A stretch of DNA of 38,526 nucleotides, taken from assembly GCA_027295405.1 (NCBI GenBank), contig JAPUKZ010000420.1, positions 1-38,526 on the forward strand, given 5' to 3'. Origin of the DNA: Gammaproteobacteria bacterium (GTDB taxonomy: Bacteria; Pseudomonadota; Gammaproteobacteria; Pseudomonadales; Halieaceae). Position 1 is the stretch's first letter, and each line of letters starts with the position of its first letter. Positions 18,330 through 29,700 of the stretch are shown one piece after another. Below the pieces are notes generated by a model. The model saw only the letters and a list, made by a program, of their open reading frames with translations. It ran no database searches and was not told the origin of the DNA. Position numbers and translations under genes: made by a program.

Positions 18330-18542
18330 TCAGACCTCGATTTTTCCGATGGCAATCGCCAACAGGATCAGGCCGATACCGCCCGCAGATATCGTCGCCA
18401 TTAATCCCCTCAGGCGATTGGCATAGGAATTAAGCGCCCGGTAATCGAATCGTTGTTGCTCAATGGGCGCGACATAGGCCTCCAGGGTGGGCGACATTTC
18501 TGCACGCCGGGAAAGTAATTCCCCAAGATTTTGCTCGTTCAT
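18330..18542 (-). CDS. Short protein: acyl-CoA-synthetase-like N-terminus joined to a membrane helix
   Basis: The product has 70 residues. The first 45 (NLGELLSRRAEMSPTLEAYV, then RFDYRALNSYANRL) read like the start of an AMP-forming acyl-CoA synthetase, but instead of the adenylation domain there is one hydrophobic helix (ISAGGIGLILLAIAIG) and a stop. The start codon overlaps the stop of the WS/DGAT gene (ATGA at 18539-18542), so it is translationally coupled. It is either a truncated synthetase whose 5' stub acquired an in-frame tail, or a real small membrane partner of the acyltransferase. The preserved start and coupling favour continued translation. Confidence 0.5.
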   Translation of the reverse strand: MNEQNLGELLSRRAEMSPTLEAYVAPIEQQRFDYRALNSYANRLRGLMATISAGGIGLILLAIAIGKIEV

Positions 18543-20008
18543 CGCTTGCTGGCCCTCCGCGTGGTCGATTGAGTGTTGCGTGCCGTGCCCTTTAGTTCTT
18601 CCTGGGCGGTCATTTGATCGGCAATGCCGTTCAAAACAGCCAGTTCCTCACAGAAATAATCGTGCAAGACCCATCCGTCCGGCAACACCTTGCTGTCGGC
18701 AAGTATGCACAGGTTGGCTTTGCCGCAGTAAGACCACAGGGTCATGTTGAGTGACGTACCATCGAATATCTGTCCCGTAGAAAACCAGTTCACGACTTCG
18801 ATTGGGCCCAGATAGAGCGGTTCACGCGGCCCCGGCACGTTGGATACGGCGACATTGCCAGCCAGCCCGAGTTTGCCGCCTTTTCTGCGAATCATCCAGG
18901 CGATAAATCGGGTCAATAGCATGGGTGACAACTGCGCCAGGGCGGTGATGTCAGAGCCGCGCGCGGCTTCAATGTGTTTTTTCATCTCATCGGTACTGGC
19001 ATGACTGGCCGCCAGGCGCTCCAGGGGGTCCTCGAACTCGATATGCAGCCAGGTGAAATCGGTGGACACGAAGTTGCCCTCGCCCTCCATCCCCGGCGGT
19101 CTCTCCCCGGCGACTGGGATGCCGGCAACCAATGGACCCTGTGACGGGTCATAATCCATGTCCTGGAGAAGGCGTCGCAAGGCGCCCGCCGCGCAACACA
19201 GGAACACGTCGTTGAGTGTGGCGCCGTCAATGATCCTGGCCTTGTTGAAATTCGCCAGGGGGATGGACTCGCAGACGAAGGTACGGCCATGACTGAGAAC
19301 ACGATTCAGCGGCGTCGCCGGCATCTGCGCCGGCGAGGGATGTGGGGGCTTGCCGGCATCACGATAGGCCCGGTCAAGCTTCCGCTTCTTCCTCAGTCCT
19401 GACACGGCTATTGGCAATCCGGTCGCGATCAATCCCGGCAGATCACGGATGCCCGCCAACAAGCGTCGCGACCAGGAGGGTACCGGCGGTGGTAGCCATC
19501 GTGGCGGGTCGTGTTCTTCCTCTTCACTGGGCTCCAAATTGAAAAACTGTTGCATGGCATGGGAGGCACCGACCCCGTCGACGTAAGCATGGTGAACCAG
19601 GGTGACCGCTGCGACCTTGCCCCCCTCCAGGCCTTCTACGACCCAGGTGATCCAGAGCGGCCTGCTGCGATCCAGTTGGTAGGCGTAGACGGAGGACATG
19701 AACTCGCACAATGCGCGGTGGTCTCCAGGAGCGGGGCAGGCAACACGGCGCAAGTGGTAGCCCAGGTAGAAATCGGGGTCTTCAACCCACAGGGGATGGC
19801 CCAGACCCAGTGGTGCTGGCATGTAGCGCCAACGGAACAGGGGTATGCGATGAAGCCTGTGTTGCATTCGTTCCTGGTAGCGCTGGAAACACCAGCCTTC
19901 GGGGTGCGCGGCGGGATCCAGAATGGCGATCTTGAAGGTGTGCATGTAGGCACGCGGCGTTTCCATGCCCAGGAACATCGCGTCCACACCACCCATTCGC
20001 TTCATCAT
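18539..20008 (-). CDS. Wax ester synthase / diacylglycerol acyltransferase (WS/DGAT)
   Basis: This 489-residue bifunctional acyltransferase transfers acyl groups from acyl-CoA to fatty alcohols or diacylglycerol at the inner membrane to make storage lipid. It shows the catalytic HHxxxDG motif as HHAYVDG (H139, H140, D144), the PLW motif (117-119) and the C-terminal conserved NVPGP. The N-terminus MGGVDAMFLGMETP is family-typical. Length is normal. It is followed with a 4-bp overlap by the synthetase-like stub, and a PlsC-type acyltransferase diverges upstream. This lipid-storage gene makes sense near a locus that oxidises hydrophobic substrates. Confidence 0.93.
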   Translation of the reverse strand: MMKRMGGVDAMFLGMETPRAYMHTFKIAILDPAAHPEGWCFQRYQERMQHRLHRIPLFRWRYMPAPLGLGHPLWVEDPDFYLGYHLRRVACPAPGDHRALCEFMSSVYAYQLDRSRPLWITWVVEGLEGGKVAAVTLVHHAYVDGVGASHAMQQFFNLEPSEEEEHDPPRWLPPPVPSWSRRLLAGIRDLPGLIATGLPIAVSGLRKKRKLDRAYRDAGKPPHPSPAQMPATPLNRVLSHGRTFVCESIPLANFNKARIIDGATLNDVFLCCAAGALRRLLQDMDYDPSQGPLVAGIPVAGERPPGMEGEGNFVSTDFTWLHIEFEDPLERLAASHASTDEMKKHIEAARGSDITALAQLSPMLLTRFIAWMIRRKGGKLGLAGNVAVSNVPGPREPLYLGPIEVVNWFSTGQIFDGTSLNMTLWSYCGKANLCILADSKVLPDGWVLHDYFCEELAVLNGIADQMTAQEELKGTARNTQSTTRRASKR

Positions 20009-21007: not shown

Positions 21008-23764
21008 TCAGTAAATGATCGTGAATTTTCTCGCCAGCGCGACCGCTTCAGATCGGTTCCTGGCATTCAGTTTGGTGTAGATATTGTGGAGGTGCCATTT
21101 GACCGTGCCTTCGGTGACAAATAACGTTTCCGCGATCTGTTTATTCGATTTCCCCTCGCTCAGAAGCTGGAGTATTGAAATTTCTTTCGCGGTGATATCG
21201 TCGAGTACAACTCCCTCGGGTAGCGTCGGCTCGCGTCGATCCGCCGTATTTTCCTGAATCAACGTGTCCCCTGCAGGGAGATCGAAGCCCTCGAGAAGCG
21301 TGTCCATGTAGTCGGCATCCAGGTCTTTGCGGTATCCCGGGCCACTGCTTACCAACTGGATCAGCAATTGCCTGACAGCGTCTCCCTCGTCCAGGAATAC
21401 GCGGAGGTAATTCTGCGGTGCCGCACGCTGCAGCGCGTCTCGCAGATCGCGCAGCGCCTCATTCGTCTGACCGATCTTCGCGCGCACCAGAGACCGGACA
21501 ATCAGCAATTCGATCAGACGTCGCCCCAGTCCGAGGTTTCGCGCGCGGTGTATCGCGGTGGACAACAGATCCAAAGCTTCACCCGATGAGTCACCACGGG
21601 CAATCAGCACGCGTGCTTTCAGTAGATCAGCCAGTGGCAGACTGCCGTAGCCCGTGCCCTCCACGCCGCGGGAGAGGTCTTCATATTCGGTCACCAGGTT
21701 TTGTGCCTGTGTCACCTGCTTCAATCGCAGGTGGGCGAGGATCTTTTCTCCGAGCAGAGTGACGGCTAGCCTCGGAAAATCACGTTGTCGCCCCAATGTC
21801 TGGCCCTCGTCAAGGATGGAGAATCCGCCTTCCACATCGTGATTCTGAATTCTCAGTCGGGATTCCGTGGTGTAGGCTGCTATCACACTATCCACGCTGC
21901 CCTGTTCCCTGACGTAGGCCAGGCAGTCCTGTAGTAAATCCCGGGACTTCGACAACTCGTTTTGTTCGTAGTGCATCGCCGCCAGCAGGGCGGAAAGCAT
22001 CTTGCTCGAATGGGAATTGCTGCCCAATTCCTCGTCTATTTTTGCTTTGTAGCGATTGCACTCCTTGATCGCTTCATTGTGTTTGCCCTGTTTCGCCAGG
22101 GAGAGGGTCATGATCAGGACCGCCCAGGCGAGGATGTAAAAAGACTTCGCCGATTCCAGGATGGCGTAGGATTCCGTAATACTTGAGTGGCAGCCCTTGA
22201 AGTCTGATTTGCACTTGCAGGCGAAACCGTGCACCACCTGAACCGGCGCCACTGCAAAGCTCTTGTGGTCGTTCCAGTTCTTCAACCATTGCGATGAGTG
22301 GTGCGCGGATTTCTCGACCCCATCTCTGAGCGCCCATTGAATGCTACGTATCATGCCCGTGGCAAGCGCTATTCGATCCGCCGTCTTCTCACCTGATTCG
22401 TCGACGCCCAGCAACCGGGTACGGAGTTTTTCCAGCTTCTCGAGTTGCTGCTCCGCCGCGTCATACTGGTGCATGAAATTCAGTGACCAGGCGTAAAAAA
22501 TACGGATCTCGGTCCACCTCTGCAGCACCTCCTCGGGCAGTTTTTCCAACCAGGACAACAGCGTTGAGTGCTTGCCTCTTTGTTGTACCAGCTCTTCGAC
22601 GTAACCGGCGATCCACTCAGCCGCCAGGTCGTACTCCTCGGCCAGAAGCGCGTATTGGACTCCCTCATCGATCGTGCCATTACTGAAATGCCAGCTGGCG
22701 GCACGACTGTACAGGGACGCACAATCATATTGTTGTTCATCACGTAAGCGCGCCTGTAAGAAGCCACCAAACAGGTGATGAAATCGAAACCACTTACCGC
22801 GACGGTCCAGGGCAACCAGAAACATGTTTCTGCGCCGGATCTCCTCGAGGTAGGCTCTGCTGTCAGAGCGGTCGGTCATCGCCTCGCAGAGCGCCGGGGT
22901 GAAGCGGTCACACAGGGAGATTTTCTTCATGAATTCAGCCAGATCCTCCGTCAACCCCGCCAACACCGCGGTCGCCAGATAGTCCGTGATCTCCCGTTCT
23001 TCCCCGGCGATGTTGGCGACGAATTCGTCGATGTCTTCGACGGTCTCCAGCGACAGGCTGGCCAGTACCAGCGCTGCTGGCCAGCCCTCGGTGCGTTCGG
23101 TGAGTTGCTGAATCAACTTGTTGTCGGCGCCTATGATTGCCTCGTCTTTCAGTAATTCCCTGCTTTCGTATTCGGTGAACCTCAGATCCTTTATCTCCAG
23201 TAACAACAGCTGGTGTTGCACTTTCAAGCGCGCCGTGGAGAACGGCAAGATCTCCCGACTGCCGATGATGAAGGTAACGTTCGCGGCCAGATGGTTCACC
23301 GACCAATCGAATAGCTCCAGAAGTCGCGGGTTCTTGATGCAATGAAAATCATCGAAAAAGATGAAAATTCTCTCATCGAGTGCATTCAACATGGTCAAAA
23401 AATGTTCCGCAAAGGATTGGGATTCCGGGTCACTGCCTGAATCCAGAAGAGAAATAATGCCGTGTGAAAATCCCTGGACCTGCATCTCGATGCTGTGTGC
23501 CAGATACCGGATGAAGCGCGTTGCGTCGTCTTCATGGGATTCGATACTCAACCAGGTGCAGGCCAATCCCTCATCCTTCAGTTGCTGGTACCAATGACCC
23601 AGCAGCGTGGATTTCCCGTAACCCGCGGGAGCCGTAACCAGTGCGATCTTGTATTGTCCTTGTACCAGGGCGTCGGGTGCCCGCAGCCGTTCCCGTGTGA
23701 TCGACTTGTAGGTATGGGGGGGGACGAGTTTCGTCTCAATGACGAGCTCCTTGGCTGCAACCAT
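21008..23764 (-). CDS. MalT/AlkS-type ATP-dependent LuxR regulator (LAL family)
   Basis: This 918-residue large ATP-binding LuxR regulator has Walker A APAGYGKST (45-53) near the N-terminus, Walker B-like IFIFFDDFH, a long helical repeat sensor region, and a C-terminal LuxR helix-turn-helix (LLSEGKSNKQIAETLFVTEG and TVKWHLHNIYTKLNARNRSE). AlkS, the alkane-responsive activator of alkBFGHJKL in Pseudomonas, and MalT share this plan and length. Its gene diverges from an alk-like operon (porin, hydroxylase fusion, aldehyde and alcohol dehydrogenases), so it is most likely the inducer-binding activator of that operon. The ATG has AGAGGA 11 bp upstream. The inducer is unknown. Confidence 0.92.
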   Translation of the reverse strand: MVAAKELVIETKLVPPHTYKSITRERLRAPDALVQGQYKIALVTAPAGYGKSTLLGHWYQQLKDEGLACTWLSIESHEDDATRFIRYLAHSIEMQVQGFSHGIISLLDSGSDPESQSFAEHFLTMLNALDERIFIFFDDFHCIKNPRLLELFDWSVNHLAANVTFIIGSREILPFSTARLKVQHQLLLLEIKDLRFTEYESRELLKDEAIIGADNKLIQQLTERTEGWPAALVLASLSLETVEDIDEFVANIAGEEREITDYLATAVLAGLTEDLAEFMKKISLCDRFTPALCEAMTDRSDSRAYLEEIRRRNMFLVALDRRGKWFRFHHLFGGFLQARLRDEQQYDCASLYSRAASWHFSNGTIDEGVQYALLAEEYDLAAEWIAGYVEELVQQRGKHSTLLSWLEKLPEEVLQRWTEIRIFYAWSLNFMHQYDAAEQQLEKLEKLRTRLLGVDESGEKTADRIALATGMIRSIQWALRDGVEKSAHHSSQWLKNWNDHKSFAVAPVQVVHGFACKCKSDFKGCHSSITESYAILESAKSFYILAWAVLIMTLSLAKQGKHNEAIKECNRYKAKIDEELGSNSHSSKMLSALLAAMHYEQNELSKSRDLLQDCLAYVREQGSVDSVIAAYTTESRLRIQNHDVEGGFSILDEGQTLGRQRDFPRLAVTLLGEKILAHLRLKQVTQAQNLVTEYEDLSRGVEGTGYGSLPLADLLKARVLIARGDSSGEALDLLSTAIHRARNLGLGRRLIELLIVRSLVRAKIGQTNEALRDLRDALQRAAPQNYLRVFLDEGDAVRQLLIQLVSSGPGYRKDLDADYMDTLLEGFDLPAGDTLIQENTADRREPTLPEGVVLDDITAKEISILQLLSEGKSNKQIAETLFVTEGTVKWHLHNIYTKLNARNRSEAVALARKFTIIY

Positions 23765-24237
23765 TTTCGCTTTTTCCTCTCCCGATCACTAGCGATCAGT
23801 TCAACTTTCTCCACCCTATCCAAAGGTAGGGCGGGCTGTCCATCAGGATAGTCGAGTTCTCACCAGTGCGGCCTCCCGGGCTGTCGTGGAGACTTCTACG
23901 ATAGCCTGACCATTATTTTATTACATTAAAAATCAATAGCTTAGAGTGCATTTGAGCGTGGTGCTGGGTACGCTGGCCGCCGGCATTGCCGGCGCTCGGG
24001 CACTCACAACGCCACCGGGACAGCAGGCTGCAACCCCAAGCACAGACGAGCAACCGTCAGCGGGCTCCCTACCCGACTCGGGTAAATCCCTATCGAACTA
24101 CAGGGTTTTGCCGCTTGCGCACGCCGTACTCTGTTTCCCAATCCCGGCAGCGTCATTTCAAGCAGCGTCGAATGAGGCAGCGTCACCAGATCCGGGTACA
24201 ACAAACCAATGAAACGGCGATAACGAGAGGAATCATC
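23765..24237. promoter_or_regulatory. Divergent control region of the regulator and the alk-like operon
   Basis: This 473-bp region has no convincing gene; frames crossing 23946-24212 lack family-like sequence. It contains CGATCA twice 10 bp apart (23783-23798), CTATCC-N24-GGATAG (23816-23851), a strong inverted repeat at 23879-23906 and an AT-rich block (23911-23938) suitable for -10 boxes. The porin gene would then have a leader of about 300 nt, unusually long. Confidence 0.5.
23879..23906. promoter_or_regulatory. 28-bp inverted repeat, operator candidate
   Basis: GGCTGTCGTGGA-GACT-TCTACGATAGCC: the two 12-bp arms match at 10 positions. It lies 115 bp upstream of the regulator start and just before an AT-rich promoter-like block facing the operon, where a LuxR-type activator would bind. 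Confidence 0.55.
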
Positions 24238-24957
24238 ATGAGTACATTCAAGAAACTGGCAGTCGCAACCGCATTGTCTACGACTGCGGCCATGCCGGCC
24301 TTTGCGTACGAGAAGGGCGACTTCATCGTTCGCAGCGGCTACTCAACCATTGTCCCCAATGAGAAAAGCGAGGCGCTAAACCTGGACGGGATCGGTGACG
24401 TCGGCAATCTGCTGGGCACCACAACCAGCTTGACGACCGACAACAGCAGCCAGCCGACCATGACCATCACCTATATGTTGAGCGACAACTGGGGCGTCGA
24501 GACCCTCATCGCCCCGCCACCCGAGCACAATATCTACGCAGAGGGGCTGGAGCCGCTCGGCATTTCCAAGCTGGGCACCTACAAACATCTGCCGGCGACT
24601 CTGACGCTGCAATATTACATTCCCACCGGGACCCGCTTTCAGCCCTACCTGGGCCTGGGCGTCAACTACACCTATTTCTTTGGCGAGGAGACCGTGGACT
24701 CGCTGGCTTCCAATCTGTACGCCAGCGACACCGAGCTGAGTATCGATTCGGCTTTTGGGTTGGCGGCCCAGGTGGGAATGGACTACCGGATCAACGAGAA
24801 ATGGATGATCAGCGCCTCCGCCATGTACATCGATCTCGAAACCGATGCCGAGTTGAAAATTACCGACACGGCTTTGCTCGGTGGCGACGCGACTTTGAAA
24901 ACTTCAGCCGAGTTGAACCCGATGGTGTACTTCCTGACCGTCGGTTACCGCTTCTAA
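24238..24957 (+). CDS. OmpW/AlkL-family outer-membrane protein
   Basis: This 239-residue protein has a signal peptide (MSTFKKLAVATALSTTAAMP, cleaved after AFA near residue 23), an eight-strand barrel pattern with FIVRSGYSTIVPN at the start, YYIPTGTRFQPYLGLGVNYT in the middle, and a terminal TVGYRF. OmpW relatives include AlkL, which lets alkanes and other hydrophobic molecules cross the outer membrane. First gene of the alk-like operon, 30 bp before the hydroxylase fusion. GAGAGGA precedes the ATG at 24238; the much longer upstream frame is rejected. By context it is the uptake channel for the operon's substrate. Confidence 0.9.
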   Translation: MSTFKKLAVATALSTTAAMPAFAYEKGDFIVRSGYSTIVPNEKSEALNLDGIGDVGNLLGTTTSLTTDNSSQPTMTITYMLSDNWGVETLIAPPPEHNIYAEGLEPLGISKLGTYKHLPATLTLQYYIPTGTRFQPYLGLGVNYTYFFGEETVDSLASNLYASDTELSIDSAFGLAAQVGMDYRINEKWMISASAMYIDLETDAELKITDTALLGGDATLKTSAELNPMVYFLTVGYRF

Positions 24958-24987: not shown

Positions 24988-26847
24988 ATGGCATACGCAT
25001 TCCCAAGCTACGCAAGAGAAGTGTTGGAACAGGTGGTTCGAGAGCCCCGCTTCCGCAAACTCACCACAATCCCGGTATTTGCCTGGCAGGCAATCGGATT
25101 GTTTACCTTCATGTTCACGGGCTACGGACTCAGCACGACTTTCTATTTGCAGGGCCAGATCCATTGGAGCGCCCTGATCGCCATCAATGGCTTCATGGCC
25201 TTTCTGGCGTTTACGATTCTGCATGACTCTACCCACCGGGCTGTATCCGGTAATCGCTTTTTCAATGACCTGTTGGGGACGGTGGCGAATTTCATGTTGG
25301 TGCCCGGCCTCAGCGCCAGGGTGTTTCGCTATCTGCACATGGAGCACCACCGTTATACCGGCGACGAGGTCAAGGACCCGGACGAGTTCATGGTGTCTAC
25401 GAAGGGTCTGGCCGTGCCGTTCTCCCTGGCCTATGTGGAATTATTTTGGGTGTCCTGGTATCTGAAGCGCTGGAGCTCGCGCCCGGTAAAGGAGCGTATT
25501 GAATTCTCCGTGGGCGTCGGCCTGTACACGCTGTGGCATGTGGTTTGGCTGTCGTCGCCCTTGGCGCTGGAGTTCGTACTGATCTGGATGATTCCCCAGC
25601 GTATGGGCCTGATGGCGAACGCCTATTTACTGGCCCGCATTCAGCACCCGGAGGGTGTGATCTGGGAGGAGAACCCGTTCCAGACCACGGTCAAGATCGA
25701 AAGCAACAAACTGCAGAAGTTCCTGATGCTGGGCCAGACGGTTCACTGTCTGCACCACCTGTTGCCGTCGGTACCGTTCTTCCGCTACCACGCGGCCTGG
25801 GACGCCGGCAAACACCTGTTCGACCAGCAGAATGTGCCAGTAGGTAATTTCTTCAACCGGCCCCCGGAGCTTATCTTCCGGGAGGAGCCGACATCGCGCA
25901 GGCTGGACGCCGAAGTCGCCTCGATTCGCGATGTGGCGGAAGACATACGGGAATTCACGCTGATTCCGCGCAATGCCATCACCTTCCCCGCGTTTGCTGC
26001 CGGCGCCCATATTGACGTACATGTTGCCCAGGGGCTGGTCCGCCAGTACTCCCTGTGCAACTCACCCAGCGATCGCAGCCGCTTTGTGATCGCCGTGAAA
26101 AAAGAAGTTGATGGTCGCGGTGGTTCGCGTGCCATGCACGAGAATGTCACGGTGGGACAGGCGATTGAGATCAGCGAGCCGCGCAACAACTTCCCGCTGG
26201 CGGAAGCCGCCACTGACTACGTCCTGGTAGCGGGCGGCATCGGCATCACACCGATCCTGGGCATGGCCCACGAACTCTATGAGCGCGGCGCCAGCTTCGA
26301 GATGCACGTCTGCGCCCGGGACCAGGCCAGCCTGCCCTTTGGCGACAGCCTGTCCGAACTGCCCTTCAGTGACCGCATTAGCGTGTATTTCACCGACACC
26401 GAAGCATTCGTGCCGGAGACGGCGGTGGGAGCCTGGACAGAGGGGCGCGAGCTCTATATGTGCGGGCCGGGTGGCTTCATGGAGTGGGTAGAGACATCCC
26501 TCACCGGTGCCGACTGGCCGGATCAGACGATCTTCTCAGAGACCTTCGTCGCCCGGGAAATTGATATGAGCGAGAACAAGACCTTCGAAGTCGAACTCGC
26601 ACGCTCCGGCAAGATCCTGACCGTCAAGCCCGACCAGTTCCTGCTGGATGTCCTGAACGACAACGGTGCCGGCGTGATCTGCTCCTGCACCCAGGGTATC
26701 TGCGGCTCCTGTATCACCCCGGTCCTGTCAGGAGAGCCGGAGCATCGCGACGCGGTTATGAGTGATGCCGAAAGAGCGGCTAACGACAAGATGTGCGTCT
26801 GTGTCGGACGCGCCAAGAGCGGTGACCGGCTGGTGCTCGATCTCTGA
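24988..26847 (+). CDS. Self-sufficient membrane di-iron oxygenase: desaturase/hydroxylase, flavin reductase and 2Fe-2S ferredoxin in one chain
   Basis: This protein has 619 residues. Residues 1-295 are a fatty-acid-desaturase-fold membrane domain with three histidine boxes, HDSTH (79-83), HMEHH (117-121) and HCLHH (253-257), and hydrophobic helices around 30-75, 95-110 and 175-215. Residues about 305-525 are a ferredoxin-reductase-type module: flavin site RQYSL (352-356), NAD site GGIGITP (416-422), CGPGG (492-496). Residues 530-619 are a plant-type 2Fe-2S domain with C567-x4-C572-x2-C575 and C605. The reductase-ferredoxin half resembles phthalate-dioxygenase/vanillate-demethylase reductases. 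Electrons would pass NADH, flavin, 2Fe-2S, di-iron in one polypeptide. It lacks the AlkB motifs, so it is not classical AlkB. GGAGG precedes the ATG. Dehydrogenases downstream suggest hydroxylation of a methyl or methylene group. Confidence 0.92.
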   Translation: MAYAFPSYAREVLEQVVREPRFRKLTTIPVFAWQAIGLFTFMFTGYGLSTTFYLQGQIHWSALIAINGFMAFLAFTILHDSTHRAVSGNRFFNDLLGTVANFMLVPGLSARVFRYLHMEHHRYTGDEVKDPDEFMVSTKGLAVPFSLAYVELFWVSWYLKRWSSRPVKERIEFSVGVGLYTLWHVVWLSSPLALEFVLIWMIPQRMGLMANAYLLARIQHPEGVIWEENPFQTTVKIESNKLQKFLMLGQTVHCLHHLLPSVPFFRYHAAWDAGKHLFDQQNVPVGNFFNRPPELIFREEPTSRRLDAEVASIRDVAEDIREFTLIPRNAITFPAFAAGAHIDVHVAQGLVRQYSLCNSPSDRSRFVIAVKKEVDGRGGSRAMHENVTVGQAIEISEPRNNFPLAEAATDYVLVAGGIGITPILGMAHELYERGASFEMHVCARDQASLPFGDSLSELPFSDRISVYFTDTEAFVPETAVGAWTEGRELYMCGPGGFMEWVETSLTGADWPDQTIFSETFVAREIDMSENKTFEVELARSGKILTVKPDQFLLDVLNDNGAGVICSCTQGICGSCITPVLSGEPEHRDAVMSDAERAANDKMCVCVGRAKSGDRLVLDL

Positions 26848-26960
26848 ATCCAGAACGAAACCAGGCAATCACTGACTACATGAGCAAGGCGGATGTGACG
26901 GCGCAGCCAGCATTCCGCCGAACTTCTGCACCATCACCAACCACTTACGAGGAAAGTGCA

Positions 26961-28472
26961 ATGACAACGATTTATGACAACTTTATTGATGGCCAGTGGC
27001 AGAAACCTGCCAGCGGCAAATACATGGTCGTCACCAACCCCGCCACGGGCGAAGTGGTGGCCGAGGCGACCGAAGGGGGAGCTGATGACGTTAATGCGGC
27101 GGTCAGCGCCGCCCGGGTTGCCTTCGATAACCCCGAGTGGCGTGACATGCCCATCGCCGAGCGCAGCAAGCTGCTGTACCAGTTGGCGCAACTGATCGGT
27201 GCCAATGCCACCGAACTGGCCGAGCTGGAAGTCAGCAGCTCCGGCGGCACCATCAGCCGCATCATGGGCCTGGACATTCCCCTGGCTATGGACCTGCTGA
27301 TGACTCTGGCAGAAGAGGTCAAGCAATTTCCCTTTGTGGAAACGCTCCCTCCAAAACCGCTGCCGGAGCCCGTCCACACCCAGGTATGGCGGGAAGCGAT
27401 CGGCGTCTGCGGCCTGATCATTCCCTGGAACTTTCCGTTGCTGCTGCTCCTGTTCAAACTGGCGCCGGCGCTGGCCACCGGCAATACAGTGGTGGTGAAG
27501 CCTTCAGAGCTGACCCCCACCTCGACGCTGCGGCTGGCGGAGATATTCTCCAGCATCCTGCCGGCCGGCGTGTTCAACGTGGTCAACGGCATGGGTCCGG
27601 AGGTGGGCGAAGCCATGTCCCTGCACCCGGACATCGACAAGATTTCCTTTACTGGTTCGACCGCGATAGGGCGTCGCGTGCAAAAAAATGCGGCGGAGAC
27701 ACTCAAGCGGGTCACCCTGGAACTGGGCGGCAAGGGGCCTGCCATTGTGCTGCCCGACGCCGATCTGGAGCGGGTCGCCTATGGGTCCCTTTATGGCGTC
27801 TTGCTGAACGCCGGCCAGGCCTGTGAGTCAGGTACCCGTCTGCTGGTGCATGAGTCGATCTACGAACCCCTGATAGAGCGGCTGGTGGCGCTCAGCGCGC
27901 AGGTTCCGCTGGGTAATCCGGCCGACCCCGCCACTGGCATGGGCCCCATGTCCAGCCATACCCACGGCGGCAAGGTACTGGGTTACATCGAGTCGGCCCG
28001 CGAGGTCGGTGCCCGCATTGCCTGTGGCGGCAACCGCGTCAGCGTGCCCGGCTGCGAGGGTGGATTTTTCGTCGAGCCGACCGTGATCGCCGACGTGACC
28101 AACGACATGAAAGTGGCGCGGGAAGAGATATTCGGACCGGTGATCTCAGTCATCAAAGACAAAAGGGTTGATGATGCCTTCGCGTTGGCCCACGACTACG
28201 ACTACGGCCTGTCCGCCGGTGTGTGGAGCGAGGACGTTGCCGGCGCCCAGGACATTGCCCGCAAGCTGCGCGCCGGATCGATCTGGATCAACGACTGGCA
28301 CATGATGCGCGCCGACGCGCCGTTCGGCGGTTACAAGCAAAGCGGTTACGGCCGCGAGATGGGCCGCTACAGCCTGGGTTCCTACCTTGAAACCAAAGCC
28401 GTGACCACGGCCTTCGAGCGCGACTCCGGCAAGAAGGCGATGCACAACCTGGTGCATAAACACATTGCTTAA
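26961..28472 (+). CDS. Aldehyde dehydrogenase
   Basis: This 503-residue NAD(P)+-dependent aldehyde dehydrogenase has PWNFP with N157, VVVKPSE with K180, FTGSTAIGRRV in the cofactor fold, general base E254 in LELGGKGP and nucleophile C288 in GQACESG. Motif spacing is complete, so it should be active. Within the operon it would oxidise the aldehyde made from the hydroxylated product to the acid (the AlkH step). The ATG at 26961 has GAGGAAA upstream; an in-frame ATG at 26880 would add 27 residues lacking family character. Third gene of the alk-like operon. Confidence 0.93.
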   Translation: MTTIYDNFIDGQWQKPASGKYMVVTNPATGEVVAEATEGGADDVNAAVSAARVAFDNPEWRDMPIAERSKLLYQLAQLIGANATELAELEVSSSGGTISRIMGLDIPLAMDLLMTLAEEVKQFPFVETLPPKPLPEPVHTQVWREAIGVCGLIIPWNFPLLLLLFKLAPALATGNTVVVKPSELTPTSTLRLAEIFSSILPAGVFNVVNGMGPEVGEAMSLHPDIDKISFTGSTAIGRRVQKNAAETLKRVTLELGGKGPAIVLPDADLERVAYGSLYGVLLNAGQACESGTRLLVHESIYEPLIERLVALSAQVPLGNPADPATGMGPMSSHTHGGKVLGYIESAREVGARIACGGNRVSVPGCEGGFFVEPTVIADVTNDMKVAREEIFGPVISVIKDKRVDDAFALAHDYDYGLSAGVWSEDVAGAQDIARKLRAGSIWINDWHMMRADAPFGGYKQSGYGREMGRYSLGSYLETKAVTTAFERDSGKKAMHNLVHKHIA

Positions 28473-28500: not shown

Positions 28501-29700
28501 ATGTCAAATACAGGATTAGTTCGATACAACATGCGCACCGTGGTTCAAGCGACACCCGGTGCCATCATCACACTGCCCAGTCTGTTTGAAGGGCTGGGCG
28601 CCAGCCGCGTCGTGCTATTGAGCGACGCGGGCTTGCAGGCCGCCGGTATTGTTGAACAGGTGGCAAACACCTTTCGCAGTAACAGCAGCGGCCTGAACCC
28701 GACACTGGCGGGCGTGTTCACCGAGATTGCCGCCAACTCCGCTTGCGAGACGGTTAATGCGGCCTTGCGATATGCCAGGGAAGTGGGTGCGGATAGCATT
28801 CTCGCTGTTGGCGGCGGCAGCGTACTCGATGCCGCCAAGGGCGTGAAGTACGCCATGCACAACCGCATCAGTGACATCCGGGAAGTGCTGCTGGGCGGCA
28901 TCAAACTCGAGTCCTGGCCCCAGGCCAGGCCCATCCAGATCCCGCATATCGCCGTGCCGACGACGGCGGGAACCGGTGCGGAGGTTTCTGCCGCTGCGGT
29001 ATTCTATAACGAAGATCTCGGCGTGAAGTGCAACCTGGTGGTCCCCTATATCGAGGCCGACATCGCCGTACTCGACGCCAATCTGACCCTGGGGCTACCC
29101 CCCGGCCTGACCGCATCCACGGGCATGGATGCGCTGACCCACGCGCTGGAGGCGCTGGCTTCACCGGCAGCCACGCATTTTACGGACTCCCACGCGACCA
29201 CGGCGGCCCAATTGATTGAATCCAGGCTGCCGCTGGTGATTGAGAACGGGCGCGATGTGCAGGCCCGGCACGATCTGCTGCAGGCGAGCACACTGGCCAT
29301 CGACGCCTTTGTCAATGCGCTGAATGCCATTCCTGTGCACAACTGCGCGCACGCCTTCGGTGCTCTGTACCACATCCCCCACGGCGACGCCAACAGTGTG
29401 CTGCTGCCCATCGTCATGGAAGTGCTGTCCGACTTCTACCTGCCCCATGCAACGCGGCTGGCAGCGGCACTGAATGTGGAGACGCATGGCGTGGACAACG
29501 AGACGCTGCTGGCCAATGTGATTGCGAGCCTGCGCAACTTGCAGGAGAAAACCGGTTGCATGACCACGTTCGCCCGTTTCGAAATCCCGGCCGGCGATCT
29601 GCCCAAGATTGTCATGGCTGTGGCGACGGATCCGGCGGGCATGTTCTATCCGATCCCGCCGGATAAGATTGCACAGATTGTGGAACAGGCCATTGGCTAA
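28501..29700 (+). CDS. Iron-type alcohol dehydrogenase
   Basis: This 399-residue group III (Fe-dependent) alcohol dehydrogenase has the NAD(P) loop GGGSVLDAAKG, then PTTAGTGAEVS and the metal-binding region with GMDALTHALEAL, HNCAHAFGALYHIPHGDANS and its histidines. It interconverts an alcohol and an aldehyde. It ends the operon 28 bp after the aldehyde dehydrogenase. In AlkJ-type systems this step is done by a membrane flavoprotein; here an NAD-linked iron enzyme takes the place. The ATG at 28501 was chosen over 28465 from the family N-terminus. No strong terminator follows; only CCCC-N6-GGGG near 29718 is seen. Confidence 0.93.
   Translation: MSNTGLVRYNMRTVVQATPGAIITLPSLFEGLGASRVVLLSDAGLQAAGIVEQVANTFRSNSSGLNPTLAGVFTEIAANSACETVNAALRYAREVGADSILAVGGGSVLDAAKGVKYAMHNRISDIREVLLGGIKLESWPQARPIQIPHIAVPTTAGTGAEVSAAAVFYNEDLGVKCNLVVPYIEADIAVLDANLTLGLPPGLTASTGMDALTHALEALASPAATHFTDSHATTAAQLIESRLPLVIENGRDVQARHDLLQASTLAIDAFVNALNAIPVHNCAHAFGALYHIPHGDANSVLLPIVMEVLSDFYLPHATRLAAALNVETHGVDNETLLANVIASLRNLQEKTGCMTTFARFEIPAGDLPKIVMAVATDPAGMFYPIPPDKIAQIVEQAIG

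Follow-up and report, generated by a model that had tools for sequence, protein, structure and literature searches.

The window analyzed in this work, the whole stretch of 38,526 nucleotides from a gammaproteobacterium of the Halieaceae, carries on its plus strand, at 24988-26847, a single open reading frame of 619 amino acids (P0001) that starts with ATG, has GGAGG just 5' of this codon and contains no internal stop. The predicted protein joins a membrane di-iron domain (residues 59-285; 25162-25842), through a linker of about residues 286-307 (25843-25908) in which no start codon occurs, to flavin and NADH domains of the phthalate dioxygenase reductase (PDR) type (25909-26562) and to a C-terminal plant-type [2Fe-2S] ferredoxin domain (26584-26844). 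A gene for an OmpW-family outer-membrane beta-barrel protein (24238-24957) ends 30 bp upstream of this fusion, an aldehyde dehydrogenase gene (ALDH; 26880-28472, whose true start may be an internal ATG) follows 32 bp downstream, and an iron-containing alcohol dehydrogenase gene (Fe-ADH; 28501-29700, in a frame open from 28465) comes last. The three neighbors were assigned by domain matches; all four genes lie on the plus strand with gaps of around 30 bp and presumably constitute an operon. Divergently transcribed (21008-23764, minus strand), domain matches and a plasmid-borne relative identify an ATP-dependent regulator of the LuxR/MalT type, in the AlkS-like class, which we presume regulates the operon. 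Elsewhere in the window, at 18539-20008 and on the strand opposite to the fusion, lies a wax ester synthase/DGAT gene, which suggests storage-lipid metabolism.

AlkL is an OmpW-family protein, and an AlkL-like role may be proposed for the beta-barrel encoded here. The top-scoring relative of the regulator on annotated plasmids, at about 28% identity, belongs to Methylibium petroleiphilum PM1, where it is found beside an 'alkane 1-monooxygenase' and rubredoxins. By position and product, we equated these PM1 neighbors with Mpe_B0606, an AlkB-type enzyme, and Mpe_B0601, which a published table lists as the MTBE monooxygenase and an ATP-dependent regulator, respectively (PMC4517660). AlkS, in turn, is an alkane-responsive activator of the LuxR/MalT family (PMC3664771). 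By analogy, the layout of the operon resembles the logic of the alk system. A sigma-70 promoter scan revealed no site, and activator-dependent promoters need not match such a search; just upstream of ompW, two GGCAGCGTCA direct repeats 30 bp apart (24146-24185) may be a LuxR/MalT operator candidate or may occur there by chance.

Comparison with Pfam gave a FA_desaturase match at residues 59-285 (E 3.5e-30; 106 bits against a cut-off of 29.7), which, together with the three histidine boxes HDSTH (79-83; HX3H), HMEHH (117-121; HX2HH) and HCLHH (253-257; HX2HH), places the membrane half in the FADS superfamily; a further histidine is H220. Long helices are predicted at residues 33-54, 60-82, 167-188 and 193-217, the one at 33-54 preceding the Pfam match. 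In the C-terminal half, FAD_binding_6 (308-402; E 5e-6) and Fer2 (537-608; E 3e-10) scored above their curated cut-offs. NAD_binding_1 remained below threshold (E 0.003), and the NADH domain was nevertheless accepted because residues 308-619, which include this region, match nearly all of 2PIA, a phthalate dioxygenase reductase (E 3e-62; identity about 39%), and because matches to the reductase half of the CYP116B P450s 6KBH and 6LAA span it as well. The order of the modules, that is FADS, short linker, flavin, NADH and [2Fe-2S], is that of a complete PDR module with its ferredoxin at the C-terminus. The flavin motif RQYS (352-355), the NAD motifs GGIG (416-419) and CGP (492-494), the ferredoxin ligands C567-x4-C572-x2-C575 ... 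C605 and the histidine boxes are intact, and nearly all of them are invariant among full-length homologues; nine histidines, including H220, are invariant in 20 of 20 aligned sequences. From homology to 2PIA, the bound flavin is probably FMN. These results agree with the sequence-only reading, which had described a one-chain route from NADH to the di-iron site with a C-terminal ferredoxin and intact motifs, and had compared it with the self-sufficient P450s, whose reductase half proved to be the same type of module.

About 20 homologues elsewhere share the fusion architecture end to end, mostly in MAGs and across four phyla, with phylum labels that were taken from MAG titles and may include binning errors. 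Full-length homologues, at 35-57% identity, were found in Haliea, Zhongshania, Rhodospirillales, Zavarzinia, Nevskiales, Algiphilus, Aquabacterium, Myxococcales, Lewinella and others, and whole genomes from the genus to which genome G112 belongs contain further fusions; one single-contig genome, G678, holds two copies (L089 and L090) with different neighbors. Three loci (L019, L027 and L028) are broken by contig ends within the reductase, and the fusion from a member of the Mycobacteriaceae (L038) is either damaged or mis-started at its N-terminus. In the search of genome contigs, a single-protein query gave no matches and it was an alignment of the FADS half that recovered the homologues. The family is uncommon, being present in 4 of 392 sampled genomes of the order and, at a stricter cut-off, in 2 of 369 of the class; no relatives were found in viral contigs and phage records, and the plasmids searched held separate FADS or PDR relatives only, without the full fusion. 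Other one-chain arrangements with a PDR module were also encountered, namely a pyridoxamine-phosphate-oxidase-like domain fused to it in the source genome (L002, contig C51) and a PepSY_TM membrane protein fused to it on an Azoarcus plasmid (L079, 1813-4002), likewise an electron-transfer fusion.

When a maximum-likelihood tree was built for the membrane half, all 20 members of the clade fell into one group (support 100/100), with stand-alone relatives, at most about 32% identical, outside it; in the tree of the reductase half, 18 fusion reductases are again one group (98/99). Since the fusion members group together in separate trees of both halves, the simplest reading would be that the fusion arose once and was then inherited and transferred in one piece. 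In the close pair L021/L022, synonymous versus nonsynonymous differences numbered 96 versus 31 and 109 versus 65 in the two halves. Reduced forms are also present: in L024 (6423-7631; a Pseudomonadales MAG) the FADS domain is joined directly to a ferredoxin, with flavin and NAD domains absent from the 12.4-kb contig, and in L025 (9992-10957) the FADS domain stands alone, followed at a short distance, near the contig end, by an ATG and open sequence. These two loci, each from one single MAG contig, are sisters in the membrane-half tree, which suggests that the reductase may have been lost within the clade. In a more distant FADS protein (L050, 8120-9985), the C-terminal extension, about 340 amino acids long, is a different and unrecognised one.

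The gene context of the homologues is not conserved, although the neighbors described below are again of a catabolic kind. OmpW is encoded directly upstream of the L019 fusion, accompanied by an AraC gene assigned by similarity to the one near L018, and ALDH lies downstream of L026, while many other homologues have no ADH, ALDH or OmpW neighbors. DUF1302, DUF1329 and TonB receptor genes occur near L030, DUF1329 and MMPL genes near the Zavarzinia fusion (L033/L092), and two acyl-CoA dehydrogenases, TetR, a TonB receptor and a P450 near the L089 copy of G678. Given these differences in context, the substrate may differ among members of the family.

We hypothesize, and consider on balance probable, that the fusion protein of the window is a self-sufficient membrane di-iron monooxygenase that hydroxylates a hydrophobic, most likely alkane-like substrate. 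NADH would reduce the flavin of the PDR module at the C-terminus, from which electrons would pass to the tethered [2Fe-2S] domain; this domain would feed them singly to the di-iron site that histidines of the membrane half ligate, where O2 would be activated and the substrate, most likely an alkane-like chain or an alkyl group, hydroxylated. OmpW would admit the substrate across the outer membrane, the Fe-ADH and ALDH would oxidize the product to the carboxylic acid and regenerate NADH, and the divergent LuxR/MalT protein, the presumed regulator, would turn the operon on. The predicted electron relay is well supported, since it follows from chemistry established for enzymes of the PDR and FADS types. 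The sequence-only reading had left the choice between hydroxylation and desaturation open; hydroxylation is favored by the operon context, in which an ADH and an ALDH downstream would fit a primary alcohol as product, and by the nearest named families, the hydroxylases CrtR and GntB. As to the substrate, a hydrophobic compound destined for catabolism is moderately supported by the gene context, and n-alkane would be a guess. Several points count against the hypothesis as a whole: the genome already has a true AlkB and does not require a second alkane hydroxylase, the Fe-ADH and ALDH families are broad, OmpW is not alkane-specific, the regulator shares no more than about 28% identity with its PM1 counterpart and neighbors vary among homologues.

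That the protein is an artifact of a chimeric assembly, or is made as two proteins from one transcript through an internal start, has practically no probability left. It is true that the source genome is an incomplete assembly of 527 contigs and that in the closely related L024 and L025 the reductase is partly or wholly missing, but the same fusion recurs elsewhere at some 20 loci, among them one in the named strain Zavarzinia marina and others in whole genomes assembled as single contigs, and this recurrence refutes a chimera. Internal translation starts, which the sequence-only reading had itself named as evidence that would count against a single protein, were looked for in the linker region (residues 285-320), where one start-like codon alone occurs, a GTG at residue 316 that lacks a Shine-Dalgarno match; no credible start was found there. 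Very improbable, too, is a divergent AlkB with fused partners, a member of the ferredoxin/ferredoxin-reductase AlkB family, which shares with our protein the principle of all partners in one chain and would suit the alk-like operon. The source genome carries a true AlkB (L067; E 4e-143 to 8SBB), and BLAST of the fusion membrane half gave no match to it or to XylM of pWW0. The fusion clade lies apart from both in the membrane-half tree, in which XylM groups with AlkB on long branches. Moreover, the AlkB motifs HELGHK, EHNRGHH and NYIEHYG are absent from the fusion, box 2 being HX2HH against HX3HH in AlkB and NYxEHYG missing, and the redox partners are C-terminal rather than N-terminal. The structure models were confident (pLDDT 88 for the full length and 94.9 for the AlphaFold2 model of the membrane half). 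Foldseek matched the membrane half to stearoyl-CoA desaturases with probability 0.97-0.99 as the best characterised fold match, preceded in rank by two chains of Chlamydomonas FtsHi motor complexes, and the AlkB structures 8F6T and 8SBB were absent among the 50 listed matches; sequence searches of the PDB with FADS profiles returned nothing related. With no BLAST similarity, no motifs and no AlkB structure among the listed fold matches, AlkB membership was rejected, as the sequence-only reading had anticipated when it called the protein not AlkB-like and proposed a phylogeny of this half against AlkB and XylM. The canonical AlkB gene of the source genome (L067/L093, contig C396) adjoins an AraC-type regulator.

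The same relay could instead serve a cyclic or terpenoid substrate (a carotenoid, monoterpene, steroid side chain or alkyl aromatic) that is hydroxylated or epoxidised, which we regard as possible, at clearly lower probability than an alkane-like one. The closest named family by profile is indeed the carotenoid hydroxylase CrtR, and the Zavarzinia and Algiphilus fusions near DUF1329, MMPL and DUF1302 genes, as well as the G678 copy whose neighborhood includes two acyl-CoA dehydrogenases together with a P450 and a TonB receptor, would fit such substrates; however, the CrtR score (82 bits; GntB, 49 bits against a cut-off of 380) is far under the cut-off of at least 475 for that family (NF045688), so that the protein is not a CrtR beta-carotene hydroxylase, no carotenoid or terpene genes were recognised adjoining the fusion in the window, and an ADH with an ALDH would best suit a terminal, primary alcohol. 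CrtR-type enzymes use plant-type ferredoxin and AlkB normally uses rubredoxin, and because of these usual donors the fused plant-type ferredoxin fits a CrtR-type enzyme rather than AlkB. Less likely still is a membrane desaturase of fatty-acyl chains or acyl lipids that carries its own electron donor and serves lipid modification: the FADS fold, the HX3H/HX2HH/HX2HH boxes, the fold match to stearoyl-CoA desaturase and the wax ester synthase gene at 18539-20008 agree with it, but a setting among OmpW, ALDH and ADH genes is typical of catabolism and not of lipid synthesis, the genome offers another protein, L068, as a candidate delta-9-type desaturase, and the nearest named families are hydroxylases.

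In principle, there is precedent for the fusion of a full set of redox partners to a membrane di-iron enzyme, a point absent from the sequence-only reading. A review presents ferr_ferrR_AlkB (Williams et al.), an AlkB with N-terminal ferredoxin and ferredoxin reductase, and reports it to be active when expressed (PMC8918992), and a 2026 paper reported that Pseudomonas putida has an oxidoreductase fused to AlkB, here too with the redox part at the N-terminal end (PMC12903215). Like ferr_ferrR_AlkB, the protein studied here is a membrane di-iron oxygenase with every redox partner in one polypeptide; it differs in that its partners are C-terminal and of the PDR type and its catalytic domain is a non-AlkB FADS domain, which excludes it from that three-domain family. 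The CYP116B P450s (6KBH, 6LAA) likewise end in this PDR module, with its parts in the same order, but their catalytic half is a heme P450, and 2PIA, whose entire module matches residues 308-619, is a stand-alone reductase that serves a Rieske oxygenase. The beta-carotene hydroxylase CrtR and the L-arginine hydroxylase GntB, although the nearest named FADS families, score far below their cut-offs, and no reductase is fused in these family models. AlkB-rubredoxin fusions (8F6T) and cytochrome b5-fused desaturases also combine a membrane di-iron enzyme with its immediate donor, but the fused part is a single carrier, rubredoxin or cytochrome b5. A C-terminal PDR-FADS fusion was not found described in the open-access literature, nor was a well-characterised orthologue of the same architecture, which the sequence-only reading had named as refuting evidence; domain databases may nevertheless already list architectures of this kind.

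The fusion family thus appears to be small, conserved and undescribed. We consider it more likely than not that it comprises self-sufficient non-AlkB membrane di-iron hydroxylases, derived from one fusion of a CrtR-like FADS domain with a PDR module, present in several phyla, starting the oxidation of alkane-like or terpenoid compounds and including reduced FADS-ferredoxin and FADS-only forms. A statement in a 2022 review, citing work from 2001, holds that ferredoxin-fused desaturases were not found (PMC8918992); at the level of sequence, in contrast, the family described here is a ferredoxin-fused desaturase-type protein. Assays of membrane desaturases and hydroxylases are difficult, since these enzymes depend on separate electron partners that in many cases are not known, and a 619-amino-acid enzyme predicted to need NADH and O2 only would be a simple test system for electron delivery to the FADS di-iron site, as well as a candidate biocatalyst. 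Surveys of hydrocarbon oxidation keyed on AlkB would overlook this family.
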